Notes under the pieces: model-generated
Database searches by the model: none
The model's input: the letters and a program-made list of their open reading frames with translations, nothing else
What the model was told of the DNA's origin: nothing
Made by a program: the position numbers and the translations under genes
Assembly: GCA_024220525.1 (NCBI GenBank)
Contig: JAMYWO010000370.1
Location: 1 to 34,757, forward strand
Direction: 5' to 3'
Length of the DNA: 34,757 nt
From: Cochliopodium minus
Lineage: Eukaryota; Discosea; Himatismenida; Cochliopodiidae
Shown: one piece after another, positions 3,275 through 10,005 of the stretch
Layout: each line of letters begins with the position of its first letter
How positions within the stretch are numbered: position 1 is the first letter of the stretch

Positions 3275-6200
3275 ATGAAAGGATCAACACTATTAATCAT
3301 TCTATCTTTCATATTTATTGTCAAATGTTCTTTGAATTTGAATGAAGGTAATTTATTGAAGAATCCAACATATTCATTACTATGTATTTACCCTTTGTGA
3401 CTCTATCTCCTTTTAGAATATGACAATAATATGTATTGGGGTCCTTGGAGACCAAATGTATATTGTGGAATGAAAACAAGATCAACCAATCCAGTCTTTT
3501 TTGGATTGGGATGGTCAAATTGTTTTGATATCAACAAAAATGGGCATAAATGTGAACAAACAGAAGATCCATACGTAATATAAATGAAAGAATATAGATA
3601 AAAGTTTAATATAATCAAATAATAGGGATGGATAGAAAATGATGGTTCAAATTATGGGTAAGTTTTTTTATTTTCAAATCAAAAATATTCAAATATAGTT
3701 CTTAGTATAATTACATTTAGAAATGATCTTAATATCTATTACTAAGATCTACATACCAATCAATATTACACAAATAAAGATATATCGTTGAACATAATTT
3801 TTCTCTTTATTAATTTAAAATAGAAAGCATGTGAGAATTGATAAGAAATTGAATGTAAAGATATACCACAAATTAGTCAAGAAAGATCTTGATTGGGTAA
3901 TGGAAGTACAAGCAGTTCCATTCAACAAGGGAAAAGTCACCAACTTGGCGTTGACCTATTATATTGGAGTGGAAGATCCCGAAGCTTCTCTAAAAATGGA
4001 TATAGAAACCTTGAACGAAACAACAAACGTTGAGCAAATAAAGTAAAAAATAAATAATTCAATTTTATTTTGCATAAATCAAATTATTAAATAAAAATGT
4101 AAACTTTAATATTTTCTTAAATAATATTAATTTTTTATATTATTTATAGGGTGGAGGGATCTTATACTAAAAATGAAAAAGACAAAATTGGATCTGGCAA
4201 GGAATTCATTTTCACTGTAAAAGAAGATGAAAACAACAAACATTCCGTGTATGCGAGACAATTAGAAATTGATTTCCCAGACAAAAACGATTTGTCCAAA
4301 ACACAATACTTAGGACAATCTATTCATAGTGATCAATGGAAAATTTTTGACATTGCAAATGAAGAGCTCATGAATGATTTGAGAGGTAGGATCATCCCAA
4401 GGTTCATGGAGTACATGGGGAAGAAGCCTGTAACATCAGAACCTTTTCTCCCGCCTACCTTGCCCAACTTTGAAAGGGACAGTGTCAATAACGTGTTCAT
4501 CTTTAGAAAGAACTATCAATTACCTGTCAAACTCGAGATTTCTTTGCACACCTCTTCTGGTTCATTGAACAAGATCAAGAAGAGAATCAACTACAAAAAT
4601 TTCATCAACAATTTTGTTTCGGAAGCACCTGCCTTGTTTTCCAACTACAGCAAATTGTACAACGAAAATTTCAACAACATCTACCAGTTTTCTGAAGCGC
4701 TTAAACAACCTCAGTTCGCCAAGTTTGCAAAGTCTGCTCACTCCAATTTGTTGGGAGGTTTGGGCTACTATTCGGGTACCTGGAGGAAAAAGGTCTTGAA
4801 GATCGATGGTACAACCAAGGTCGTAGAAAGAGGACCCAACGTGTTGTTCAGTGCAAGTCCTTCAAGATCATTCTTTCCAAGAGGGTATGTTTTTTTAAAT
4901 TTTTTAATTTATTCTTTTATTTTTTTTATTTTTATTTCATTTTATCATAATTTTCAATTAATTTTTTTCAAAAAAAAGATTTCTTTGGGACGAAGGATTT
5001 CATCAAATGGGAGTTTTAGACTGGAACGAAAAAATAACATACGACGTTTTGACCCATTGGTTCGACCTCATAGATCCAAGCGGTTGGATTCCCCGTGAAC
5101 AAATTCTCGGCAGCGAAGCACGTAGCAGAGTTCCTGAGGAGTTTGTGGCCCAAATTCCCACCAATGCCAACCCTCCTACCTTTTTCTTAGTTTTCGAGAA
5201 GCTTCTGGACAAGTTCTTTCCTGTCAATGCTACTGGAATTGAAAATGATAACGAAGAAAAAAATATTAAACAACAAGGTATTTTTTTTTTTTAATAATCT
5301 TCATAAATTTAATTATTTCTTTACAAATCATTGTTTTGAATATTTTTTTTTGAAATTTTTTTTTTTAAATAAAAGTCATCTTTAAAGTTTTTGTGATTTT
5401 TAATTTTTTCTTTGAACTTTTTTTTGAATATTTCTCTTTTTTCTCAATATTTCTTTTTTTAGAACTTTTGGAATTTTTCAGACATAATATCCCCAAAATC
5501 AAAAAGTGGTACGAATGGTTCATCGAATCCCAAAGTGGCCTCAAAAAATACTCCTACTACTGGCACGGAAGAACAGTGAACCATACCTTGTCATCAGGGC
5601 TCGATGACTACCCAAGATCTCCTATCGTCTCAGATCAAGAGATGCACGTTGATCTCTTTTGTTGGGTTGCAATCTCTACTAGAGTTCTTAGCAAAGTTCA
5701 CGCTTTGTTGGAGCCTCATGTAGAAAATCCTTATGCTAAAGACTATGTCAATTTTGAAAGTGATATTGAACGTAACACTTTTTTTTTTAACATTAATTTC
5801 ACTATTTCTTTTTTATTATGTTTTACTCTTTTTTTTTTGTGTGTTTTTCTGTTTTATTTATTTTTTGTTTTTCAATTTTTTATGGTTTTGAAAGATTTTC
5901 ATTGTTTTTGTTCATTTCTTTTAAGATTGATTTTCTTCAATTATTTGATATTTAAATTTTTTTGGATTTGTTAATTTTAAATTGTTTAAAAATTTTTTTT
6001 TAATTTTTTTTTTCCTATCATTTTTCGTTGCGAAATTTTCAATAATAATTTTTTTCCATTTTAGTTTATTGGAATAACAAACTAAAACTTTACTCCGACA
6101 TAAGTTTTTGGAACAATGGAAAACCTAACTACACAGAAACAGTTGGTTACATCAACTTGTTCCCTCTCATCGCCAAACTCATCCCTTCCGACTCCGCCCA

Positions 6201-6783
6201 CTTGAAGAACGTATACGACGCTATTTTGGACGAGAAGGGCATGTGGTCGAAGTTTGGTTTGAGATCTCTTTCTAAATCTGATCCTCATTTCTCAACTGGC
6301 GAAAATTATTGGAGAGGTTAAAAATTGTTTTATTTTTTTGTTAATTCATTATTTTATTTTTTTAATCATTGTCATTTTATTATTTTATTTTTTTTATTTT
6401 ATTTTTTATTTTTTATTTTTTATTTTAATAATTAATTTTTATTTTTATTTTTTATTTTTATTTTATTTTTATTTTATTTTTATTTTGATTTTTATTTTTA
6501 TTCATTTTCTTCTCTTCCTTTAGGTAAAATTTGGATCAATATAAACTATCTCGTCTTAAGCGCTCTCCACACCAAGTACATTCACGAAGGAGAACACAAA
6601 CAACAGGCCAAACAAATTTATGAGGGGCTTAGAAAGAACCTCATCGACAATATGCATCTTGTGTACAGCAAAACCGAGTTTTTCTTTGAGAATTATGACC
6701 CCATAAATGGTCAGGGTGTAGGTGCTCGTCCTTTTAATGGATGGAGTTCTTTGATTTTTCTCATAATGGCCGAGAAATTTTAG
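3275..6783 (+). CDS. mogs: Mannosyl-oligosaccharide glucosidase (glucosidase I, GH63)
   Basis: Nine exons: 3275-3347, 3417-3574, 3626-3657, 3824-4042, 4150-4884, 4979-5277, 5463-5771, 6065-6316 and 6524-6783. All phases agree, giving 778 residues, normal for the family. The enzyme removes the outermost glucose from the N-glycan precursor in the ER. The N-terminus is a signal peptide or short anchor (LLIILSFIFIVKCS), followed by the family opening YWGPWRPNVYCGMKTR. The (alpha/alpha)6 catalytic domain shows SFFPRG-FLWDEGFHQ (split by an intron), IPREQILGSEARSRVPEEF, NYWRGKIWIN and a final ENYDP...GQGVGARPFNGWSSL. Those blocks carry the acidic residues used for catalysis in GH63. There is no KDEL-type tail. 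It ends only 44 bp before the next gene. The introns of 121-293 nt are strongly T-rich on the coding strand. Confidence 0.93.
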
Positions 6784-6827
6784 AATTTAAATTATTTATA
6801 AAAATAAAAAATTAAAAAATTAAAAAA

Positions 6828-9800
6828 ATGGATAATCTTATTAGTCAATCTAATATTAATATCTATGTTGTCATTGATAGGTTAATCTTACCTTTATCAT
6901 TCTATAATTTTTTTAATTTTATCATATTTTGTTATATAAACTCATATTGACATCAGATTGAAGAAAAATTATGATCCAGATATTGAAAACAGGCTTTTGA
7001 ATGTCTATCAATTGTAAATATATTGATCCACACCAATATTTTTAGTGTGTAAATTTTTTTTGATTTTATAAATTTTTAATTGGAAAGAGGATCGAGAGTA
7101 TATGGAACTATCAAACCATCATCAGATTGGGTATAAAAGATATATCAATATTTAGAACTTGATAATTTAATCTCCTCAAAAGGATTTCTTCTGTGTGGTA
7201 TCTCACAACAAATTTTTAGGAGAAAAGCATTTTTTATGGGAATGTTACGATGATGGAGAAGTATAACAAAAGTTAAATTTCACTCAAGAAAAAAAGAACT
7301 TTTTTTTTTAAAAAAAACATTCTTAGGTTAATTGTGGTAATCAAAATAAATTTTTTTTTTCTTAATTTAGTAAAAAAAATTCAAATATTTATTTAAAAAA
7401 ATTCATTTAGCATTGTACGCAATAGATTATTTCAAGTAAAAAAAAAATTGTAGTTCAAAAAACTCTTTTAAAAAGAAAATAATTATTTTTCGACTAACAA
7501 AACTTTTAAAATTTTTCTTTCAATATATTTTATTTTTTAACATTTTAAAGAATAATGGCAATGAGGTAAAAAAAATTAAAAAACGAAATATTGTTGGAAA
7601 AATTATAATTTTGATTCCTGATAAAGTTTTAGAATGGAAACACTTGAATGTTTATTTCTAAAAAAAGAGCACATTTGGCTAGAGAAAGAAAAAGTAGAGC
7701 CTCCCAAATTGGACAAAGACGTATTAAGAAAAATGGTAAGTTGGATTTCCAACTTAAGGTAAATTTGTTATGAATATAATTTTTAATAAATTTTTTTTTT
7801 TTAATAAAAAATATTCATTTTTTTAAAATTTTTTTTTTTAATTAAAATAATTTTTAAATTTTTTTAATAGATTGGCAATGGCCAAAAAAAGGATGAAAGA
7901 GGAAACATACAAAGCAAAGAAATGTATTTTTCATGGATTAAGGTAGATTAAAAAGAAAATAAATATAAATTCAACAATTTTTTTTTTTTTTTTGAAAAAA
8001 AAATTAGATACATAATATTTGGGTAAATAATTTTTAACATTAAATGAAAAATTTATTGATAAAACCATTTTCAAAGAATACAAATTTTGATGCATGGAAA
8101 AATAATTGATTATTCAGAAGCGAACCCTTGGTTGGACAAAATTGTAAATACAGAAGGAAATGAATACTCCAAAATATATTCCCTCTTCGATAAGACTTTT
8201 CAGGAGTACAGAAACCAAATGAATACAATCTCCAATCCTAACGATTTTTACCTCAAAAGTGAGTCGTTTGCACATCATTACTCCAAACTCTTTTCAAACT
8301 CTAAAACTCTCATTCTCACGAACCAGAACTTTATGCCTCAAGTAATAAGCAAAAAGTGGGAATCTCCTTTAAAAATTAAAAACGGAGATTTAAATATTCC
8401 TAAATGTAAGTATTTTATTAATAAAAACTTTTTTAATTTCCTTTTTTAATTTTCTTTTAAAATTTTTTTCAACTTTTTTAGAATTTATATTATTTTTACA
8501 CTTTTTTTAATTTTTTAGTGTTGGATTATTTGTCAAAAAATAGCACAGTAAAACTTTTGAAGGAATTTTCAGTGACGTGTTGTTTTGACGAGAAAGACCC
8601 CAATTTGATCCACCTATCTCCAACCCTCATCTCCAAAAATTCCGACAACGAAATCATCAAAGAAATTTACAACGGTGTCGTATTAAATGTTGATGAAGAA
8701 CTTAATGTGAGTGTTTTGTGTTCTTCTGTTCCTAAGCCCGTCTCTTTTTATGCAGACGTGGAAGAAGAGTTTTATGACGATAAGTTGGAACAAGTTTGGA
8801 GTGAAAGATTTGAAGAAACTCAAGTTTGGGAGTTGGTTGATGGAGACCTTGTTCATTTGTACTTAAGCAATGGGAATTGGTGGTAAAAAAGAGATTATGT
8901 TTAAAGTTTTTTTAGTTAATTTAAATTCAAATTATTTCTTCAATAATTTCTTCTAATTTAATTCTTTAATTCTTTAATTATTTTTCAAAAATAGTGTTTC
9001 TTCTAAATTCAGCCCTTCTGGAACTTCTCCTTTTCTATGTCGAGATTACATGCAAGATAAAAAAATCAAAAACAAAAGCATCAGCTTGTTCTTCTGGAAT
9101 ATTTGGAAGCGAAAAGAGTTCAGACTTCCCGATGCAAACACATTTGGAAAAGACACCTGCTTCTCTTTCATCCTCTCTTCCAAATACAACAGATACGTTG
9201 TAAATTTTGACGAAGATTCTTTACATTTGATTGCTGCAAAAATTAATGGAAAATCACTTTGGGATCTCAAAGAAATTTCGCAGAAATACAACTGGATCAC
9301 TCCTAATCTTTTCAATTTTAAAAATTTTAATGATTCTGTTTCTTTTGTGCGTGAAATCAACCCTTTTCAACACAAGGGTTTGTTTTTTGTTAGGAAGAGT
9401 GGCGACAATTTAGAAAGGTTGGAAATGAAGAGTTCCAAAAACGTTGCTGTACAAGCCACTATTAACTTTAGAAACGATGGGTTTGGACCTTTTAATCTAA
9501 GAGCAAGTAAAGATTTTTTTTTTATTATTTATTTATTTGTTTTTGAATTTATTTTTTTAAAATTTATTTTTAATCTTTTGTTTTTATTTATTGTTTTTCT
9601 TTTTATTTTTTTATTTAAATTTTTTTTTTAATCTTTTTTTATTATTTTTTAATCTTCATTAATAAAGATCATCTTCAAGAAAGAGATATGTTGGAATTGA
9701 TTAGATTACAACGTTCTGAAGAATTTTTAAATCACTTCCCAAAGTACAAAGAACTTCACCAAAAAGTTATGGTGGCTTATAAATCTTATTGCGACCAAAT

Positions 9801-10005
9801 ACAAAAGATCCATGACAACATACCTCCCCAACTAAACAAACTGGATATTTTAAAGTATTTGGATGATTATCCTCAACATAAAGCTTCCATTTTGTTCATT
9901 TTGAGCGGGAAAAACAAGAACATTGAGGATTCTTTTGCTCATCTCAAAAATTTCCATGAGTTGGCTGTTTTTGAACAGAATGTCTTGAAGATCATCAATT
10001 TGTAA
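6828..10005 (+). CDS. RlaP-type nucleotidyltransferase fused to a T4 RNA ligase 1-like domain
   Basis: Fourteen exons: 6828-6880, 6957-7013, 7088-7130, 7183-7260, 7327-7336, 7411-7435, 7551-7565, 7633-7758, 7871-7942, 8008-8022, 8077-8405, 8519-8882, 8995-9506 and 9668-10005. Phases agree throughout, giving 678 residues. Residues 1 to about 270 look like the RlaP family of DNA-polymerase-beta nucleotidyltransferases: GSRVYGTIKPSSDWD (G38, S39, D50, D52), then VNCALYAIDYF, METLECLF, KKCIFHGLRYIIFGIQI and HGKIIDYS. Residues about 275-678 resemble T4 Rnl1-type ligases: a YNGVVLN block, WELVDGDLVHLY at motif I, YNRYVV at motif III, KGLFFVRK at motif IV, and a C-terminal helical region with HFPKYKEL and ILFILSGK. 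The expected catalytic lysine position is L380. RlaP and RNA ligases are known partners in RNA-repair systems, so a role in RNA repair or RNA end modification is inferred. The exon chain is secure by phase; the ligase assignment is by eye. Confidence 0.75.

Follow-up and report, generated by a model that had tools for sequence, protein, structure and literature searches.

A spliced gene of Cochliopodium minus joins a phage-type nucleotidyltransferase to an RNA ligase 1-like domain whose catalytic residues have been lost

We analyzed a window of 34,757 nucleotides from the protist Cochliopodium minus (contig JAMYWO010000370.1, positions 1 to 34,757 of the forward strand; the assembly, GCA_024220525.1, comprises 44.65 Mb in 598 contigs) and found that positions 6828-10005 of the plus strand form one intact gene of 14 exons and 13 introns. 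Its spliced rebuild encodes a protein of 678 amino acids (aa) in which a nucleotidyltransferase (NTase) domain is followed by a region homologous to T4 RNA ligase 1 (Rnl1). An initial annotation of the same stretch had put the start at 6828, the stop at 10005, 13 junctions between them and 678 residues in the product; we reproduced all of these, with exon 7 uncertain. The features of the gene, and its upstream neighbor, are as follows.

6828-6880, 6957-7013, 7088-7130, 7183-7260, 7327-7336, 7411-7435 and 7551-7565, plus strand: exons 1-7 (spliced rebuild)
7633-7758, 7871-7942, 8008-8022, 8077-8405, 8519-8882, 8995-9506 and 9668-10005, plus strand: exons 8-14 (spliced rebuild)
6957-8235, plus strand: NTase domain, about residues 20-217 (phage tblastn matches, phrog_388 match, conserved columns)
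7327-7336, plus strand: exon 5, a 10-nt microexon encoding the third metal site (recovered by an independent profile)
7551-7565, plus strand: exon 7, 15 nt, uncertain; the alternative is a start of exon 8 at 7627 (profile-guided splicing)
8008-8022, plus strand: exon 10, a 15-nt microexon encoding part of the HGLRYIIFGIQIL block (rebuild and independent profile)
8382-10002, plus strand: Rnl1-like pseudo-ligase region, from the end of exon 11 to exon 14, about residues 270-678 (hhalign, tblastn)
8519-8882, plus strand: exon 12, with the ligase motif I position, ELVDG, Leu380 standing for the adenylated Lys (motif alignment)
8995-9506, plus strand: exon 13, with motif III (Ile455 for Glu), motif IV (Lys523 for Glu) and motif V (EMK for KxK) (motif alignment)
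4121-6783, plus strand: exons of a GH63 glucosidase gene, the upstream neighbor; eukaryotic context, outside the system

All 13 introns run from GT to AG and measure 52-161 nt, and the spliced frame carries a single terminal stop, compared to 42 and 52 stops in the other two frames. The G+C content is 33.3% in the exons versus 12.7% in the introns. As a control for circularity, a 24-row NTase profile built without the window protein was run over the region 6601-8500 with a custom splice-aware aligner, and between 7013 and 8077 its internal exon boundaries coincided with those of the rebuild, including those of the microexons at 7327-7336 and 8008-8022, except around exon 7. This exon was omitted by the independent profile, which started exon 8 at 7627 instead of 7633, and exon 7 is for that reason uncertain; the alternative model without it encodes 675 aa in a frame that is likewise open. 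The basis for exon 1 (6828-6880) is its splice signals and an ATG only. The splice-alignment score was 331.7 at the gene, against at most 62.1 in 37 controls, namely 36 tiles that, on either strand, cover most of the remaining window, plus the region itself read on its reverse strand. In three paralogues elsewhere in the genome, the end of the NTase domain and the ligase sequence lie in one uninterrupted frame (L037, 524 aa; L034, 518 aa; L031, 321 aa), which demonstrates the fusion without any splicing assumption. On the evidence of these frames, both halves belong to one gene. The recovery by the independent profile and the one-frame fusions bear out the initial proposal of a single spliced gene hidden from open reading frame scans by its tiny exons.

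The NTase half gave 32 tblastn matches to phage records (duplicate records included), the best of them to an uncultured phage of 634,780 bases (E=2e-15, 32.8% identity) and the second to Bacillus phage FADO (E=7e-15). The window protein also matched phrog_388 ("nucleotidyltransferase") over residues 27-110 with an E value of 7.8e-8, in PHROG scans limited to this protein and to PJN02, G and L037. In Pfam, the full window protein returned NTP_transf_2 and Polbeta below threshold plus two weak unrelated matches; PF10127 (RlaP) matched neither the full protein nor its pieces at E≤1, and the paralogue L037 reached 13.8 bits with a cut-off of 23 bits. Among 40 phage-type relatives, 17 matched PF10127 with E values of 0.01 or below, 1.9e-14 being the best, and homology to RlaP emerged at the profile level: a profile built from six fused copies and six phage sequences aligned over 135 columns with two RlaP sequences, one of which matches PF10127 at 2.5e-27 (hhalign, 96.2%, E=2.4e-9). 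Judged from these comparisons, the relation to RlaP is real, not close, and the close relatives are the phage NTases of the phrog_388 type. The initial annotation had called the domain an RlaP-type NTase; its assignment to NTases of the RNA-repair kind related to RlaP stands, while the lack of a PF10127 match and the nearer phage relatives move it out of RlaP proper. An association with a ligase, as in RlaP, is found here in that the NTase is fused to a ligase-derived domain.

When the NTase profile was compared with PDB, the best matches were to an aminoglycoside adenylyltransferase, MNT antitoxins and uridylyltransferases. HalB chains aligned over positions 17-160, at chance level (E=0.47-0.49) yet across most of the domain, and the PDB matches stronger than HalB span only the NTase core. 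PADLOC and NCBIfam scans produced weak superfamily matches only, among them a weak NCBIfam resemblance to MntA (for two phage-type relatives) and to ANT(9).

The GS and DxD motifs of the pol-beta superfamily are present in the window copy as G38-S39 and D50-x-D52, followed by K153/H157/R160, D176 and N181; the third acidic residue is absent, Asn79 occupying the third metal position. We took the columns that are at least 88% identical in 77 viral and bacterial rows and read them in nine fused copies from this genome, using PJN02 numbering. DxD, Lys131, Arg138 and Asn159 were each kept in all nine, Lys131 and Arg138 being the K and R of the K..H..R motif, and GS was kept in all eight copies in which it could be read. 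The conserved Arg is followed by Tyr (LRY) in seven of eight fused copies, compared to mostly Ile in the viral rows. At the third metal position, the 77 rows, which include near-copies, have Asn in 41, Asp in 23, Ser in 11 and Gln in 2; the wider survey from which they were drawn counts Asn in 46 rows out of 91, a set that includes six fused copies. (The smaller set lacks these six and eight others: three short pieces, the RlaP-type L057 and L058, and L110, L111 and L086.) Since Asn is so common across the viral rows, it is usual in the phage-type NTase family, and we dropped our earlier idea that it marked decay in the protist. Asn is the commonest state at this position in the phage NTase family, and often sits in an N-I-H context.

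For the C-terminal half, a profile of six fused paralogues aligned over 284 columns with a set of four canonical Rnl1-type ligases (three from protists and one from a phage), with an hhalign probability of 99.9% and an E value of 7.7e-31; the canonical set itself matches T4 Rnl1 structures at E=2.3e-18. By direct tblastn, the ligase half found only the ligase-like region of Pseudoalteromonas phages (three records of two phages; best J2-1, E=1e-6). PF09511 gave no match at E≤1 for the window protein, compared to 71.2 bits for the stand-alone ligase L036 of the same genome, and a PDB search with the fused ligase profile returned nothing relevant. The initial annotation had made a profile match for each half its test in Pfam; neither half gave a significant direct match, a result overruled by the phage tblastn matches and the paralogue profiles.

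The motif Lys, the Glu residues of motifs III and IV and the KxK motif are catalytic residues of nucleotidyltransferase-type ligases. In the window protein Leu380 replaces the adenylated Lys (ELVDG), Ile455 and Lys523 replace the two Glu residues, and EMK stands for KxK. With the catalytic Lys and both Glu residues lost, sealing by the window polypeptide is unlikely, and we rejected the window copy as an active ligase on the damage in motifs I, III, IV and V. The initial annotation was thus right about an Rnl1-like region, though one without its catalytic residues, and its proposal of RNA repair by both halves in one chain is unlikely to hold at the sealing step. The alignment of the fused ligase halves over 284 columns and the intact frame indicate that the ligase domain appears to be maintained, and this pattern suggests a ligase turned into a holder for RNA ends.

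What had been described as a single fusion polypeptide is indeed a fusion, and one of a family: the genome holds at least nine fused NTase-ligase genes, the window gene included. The others, in our locus and contig labels, are L037 (C33), L031 (C45), L033 (C26), L034 (C321), L035 (C346), L136 (C159), L137 (C50) and L140 (C549), with models from the custom splice aligner that are rough at their ends. L033 has an extra NTase-like stretch (KLDINVTRSN) at 2683-2808, after the DxD exon, and its N-terminal model may be wrong. NTase profile scores were 197.2-352.4 in six fused loci with each locus's own row left out and 236.7 and 338.4 for L136 and L137, which lie outside the profile, and 244.1 for L140; with own rows present in six of eight, the fused loci scored 236.7-545.3, and opposite-strand controls at most 56.2. 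Further NTase-like matches lie on C251, C426, C2 (527-528 kb), C169, C5 and C37. The genome also carries stand-alone Rnl1-type ligase genes at ten loci (L032, L036 and L042-L049). The idea of an overlooked NTase beside them was discarded, as none of the ten loci scored above 75.0 with the NTase profile.

The two kinds of ligase differ sharply at their motifs. An intact KxDG is found in none of the nine fused copies versus nine of nine stand-alone ligases (and both phage ligases), the motif III Glu in one of nine versus nine of nine, and the motif IV Glu in one of the eight fused copies in which the motif was reached versus seven of seven; motif IV was out of reach in L034, L046 and L048, L037 is ambiguous at motif III, and L042 (KLDG visible) scored too low for inclusion and is absent from the ligase alignment. 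Among the fused copies, L137 retains the Lys, EG and KIK and has KVNG without the motif III Glu, L136 retains the motif III Glu, and L034 retains the motif I Lys in a KLGG. As the lesions vary from copy to copy, ligase loss was repeated or progressive and not one shared mutation. The mean pairwise identity is 27.3% for eight fused NTase halves and 20.7% for eight fused ligase halves, and 41.1% for four stand-alone sister ligases.

NTase genes without a ligase are present as well. L138 (G000:C3:97000-100100, minus strand) is a phage-type NTase with no ligase in the 3.1 kb examined, and it has Asp as its third metal residue and has retained the phage signature for the most part (GNSWVKCNKK); a long opposite-strand frame in this region looks ankyrin-like by eye. 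L139 is another NTase copy with Asp and no ligase match, on a contig that ends soon after. Further RlaP-type NTase genes are found at L041 (C314), L040 (C414), L038 (C4) and L039 (C253), with one PF10127 match at 8.1e-30; the open frames on C414 and C4 appear by eye to contain two tandem NTase-like units.

The fused gene is flanked by the GH63 glucosidase gene upstream and by F-box and RhoGEF genes downstream. This setting identifies the locus as eukaryotic nuclear DNA, in agreement with the nuclear encoding claimed initially, and together with the introns it ruled out bacterial or phage contamination. Scans of the window for tRNA genes and Rfam families gave no matches.

In Bacillus phages PJN02 and FADO, genes for a protease, an RNA ligase of the T4 type and an endonuclease lie in one cluster behind the NTase, followed in PJN02 by an annotated polynucleotide kinase. 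Ligase-profile matches (frames of at least 90 aa, E≤1e-3) occurred in 15 of the 85 stretches scanned from phages, other viruses and bacteria, the RlaP-type L057 and L058 being among the 85; this is a raw count, and several of the 15 are near-copies. Of 78 viral and bacterial NTase frames (five of them short pieces), the longest has 291 aa and cannot accommodate both domains, and no NTase-ligase fusion was seen in this set. The fusion therefore probably took place in the eukaryote, once the gene had been acquired from phage or bacteria. The ligase tree is poorly resolved, with long branches: seven of eight fused copies fall with the clade of L032, L036, L047 and L048 on one side and L034 lies elsewhere on a long branch, all with weak support. 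L140 and L046 were left out of it. The fused group needs two changes on this tree and forms one side of a branch in 9% of bootstrap trees, and a single origin remains compatible with it.

From these data we propose a two-domain protein in which a phage-type RNA-repair NTase would be active on RNA 3' ends and a dead ligase would serve as a holder, with sealing in trans, and we give this proposal as a whole about an even chance of being correct. For nucleotide transfer, the NTase would rely on the metal- and nucleotide-site residues that it has kept (GS, DxD and K/H/R). Its target would most likely be the 3' end of a cleaved RNA, for example a tRNA half, which would be extended or marked, while the dead ligase domain may have been retained as a platform gripping the RNA end. 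Sealing could then be carried out by a stand-alone Rnl1-type ligase of the same genome.

Several observations weigh against this proposal. The window copy has Asn as its third metal residue, and the nine fused copies together have Asn in five, Asp in two (L137 and L140), Glu in one (L034) and Gln in one (L136); a textbook pol-beta enzyme with Asn at this position would presumably be inactive, although 41 of 77 viral or bacterial relatives have it too. The fused copies no longer have the SNSxVKxKKK stretch seen in the phage enzymes, Ser113 and Val115 each being kept in none of nine, and Glu81, kept in 74 of 75 viral rows, is lost in four of nine. Because of these losses the substrate or the reaction may have changed. 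Of the 85 phage, viral and bacterial stretches, 70 have no ligase match, and an RNA ligase is not annotated in seven other annotated phage stretches (G, RAS14, LC76P1, Vibrio 2.275.O, XacN1, Bacillus CM1 and BM15). RNA binding by the ligase domain is, in addition, something that we infer.

The Asn at the third position and the loss of the SNSxVKxKKK stretch make a double pseudoenzyme the strongest rival, in which both halves would be inactive and the protein would be an RNA-end sensor or scaffold that binds nucleotide or RNA without chemistry. The lost ligase motifs and the strong divergence of the family in both halves fit this idea too, but Asn is the commonest residue in viral relatives that are unlikely to be all dead, Asp is kept in the fused L137 and L140 and in the ligase-free L138 and L139, and the invariance of DxD in nine fused copies and of GS in the eight readable ones would be unexpected if metal binding were irrelevant; we consider this rival possible but unlikely. 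A target other than RNA ends (AMPylation of proteins, transfer to small molecules or a signalling nucleotide, with the ligase domain as the sensor of an immune-like system) seems improbable to us. It would account for a divergent, multi-copy family, for the resemblance to an aminoglycoside adenylyltransferase and MNT antitoxins, next to uridylyltransferases, among the top PDB matches, and for the weak resemblance to MntA and ANT(9), although the PDB and NCBIfam matches span only the short shared NTase core, and both annotated ligase-bearing phage neighborhoods (PJN02 and FADO) point to RNA repair.

An active two-step repair enzyme, with nucleotide addition and sealing in one chain, could be argued from the clear homology of both halves and from the motif I Lys kept in L034 and in L137, the latter also with EG and KIK. 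The window protein, however, lacks the Lys and both Glu residues, and even these two paralogues have KLGG or a KVNG without the motif III Glu, within a family in which no KxDG is intact, so that this reading is very improbable. Least probable of all, and set aside on the statistics of frame, introns and G+C content and on the independent profile, is a decaying gene or a chance joining of exons, that is, a pseudogene read through hand-picked introns. AT-rich DNA is rich in GT/AG pairs, one microexon is ambiguous and the ligase motifs are poorly conserved, but no frameshift has to be assumed, every intron is GT..AG, the frame has one terminal stop compared to dozens in the other two, exons and introns contrast in G+C, and the profile recovers the gene far above its 37 controls.

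Beyond our proposal of an active NTase with a ligase-derived holder, we would offer as a decidedly tentative scenario that the lineage captured a phage-type NTase, fused it once to an Rnl1 ligase and killed the ligase, and that a fast-evolving family then expanded in which the ligase fold is an RNA-end sensor controlling the NTase. If true, this would be a eukaryotic RNA-damage sensing system assembled from phage repair parts. For RNA damage and repair systems we rely on PMC7824862 and PMC6514570. According to PMC7824862, the distribution of RlaP in jumbo phages mirrors that of RNA ligase, which agrees with the partnership in repair that the initial annotation invoked, and RlaP is predicted, not assayed, to restore lost nucleotides before ligation. 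So far RlaP and ligases have been tied together by their common distribution and the association of their genes. A natural fusion argues more strongly for one common substrate, and one that conserves the NTase core alone indicates which activity is needed there. It also reveals that a eukaryotic nuclear genome has expanded a phage-like repair kit, which comprises at least nine fused genes, one or more ligase-free phage-type NTases (L138) and ten stand-alone ligase loci. Our searches of open-licence PMC papers turned up none that reports an NTase-pseudo-ligase fusion in its title or the opening of its abstract.

Compared with known systems, the protein is closest to the phrog_388-type phage NTases (Bacillus phages PJN02, FADO and G gp109, Stenotrophomonas phage RAS14 and Lak phages). 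It resembles them over most of the domain length, in the GS..DxD core, the K..H..R motif and the GKI.D...N block, in the Asn that many of them have at the third metal position and in the RNA-ligase neighbors of some, but they are stand-alone proteins of about 200-290 aa and most keep the SNSxVKxKKK stretch. With RlaP (PF10127) it shares the pol-beta core and the following helical block, which align, as well as the association with RNA ligases, whereas it has no PF10127 match and its C-terminal block differs from that of both RlaPs compared. The T4 RNA ligase 1 family (PF09511) is homologous to the fused C-terminal half over the 284 aligned columns; the fused protein differs in lacking the nucleotidyl Lys, the motif III and IV Glu residues and the first Lys of KxK, in the missing PF09511 match of the window ligase half and in being joined to an NTase. 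Within the genome, the stand-alone ligases L032, L036, L047 and L048 are placed by the tree, with weak support, on one side alongside all but one of the eight fused ligase halves, but unlike these they have kept KxDG intact, and no NTase was found in the stretch examined around them.

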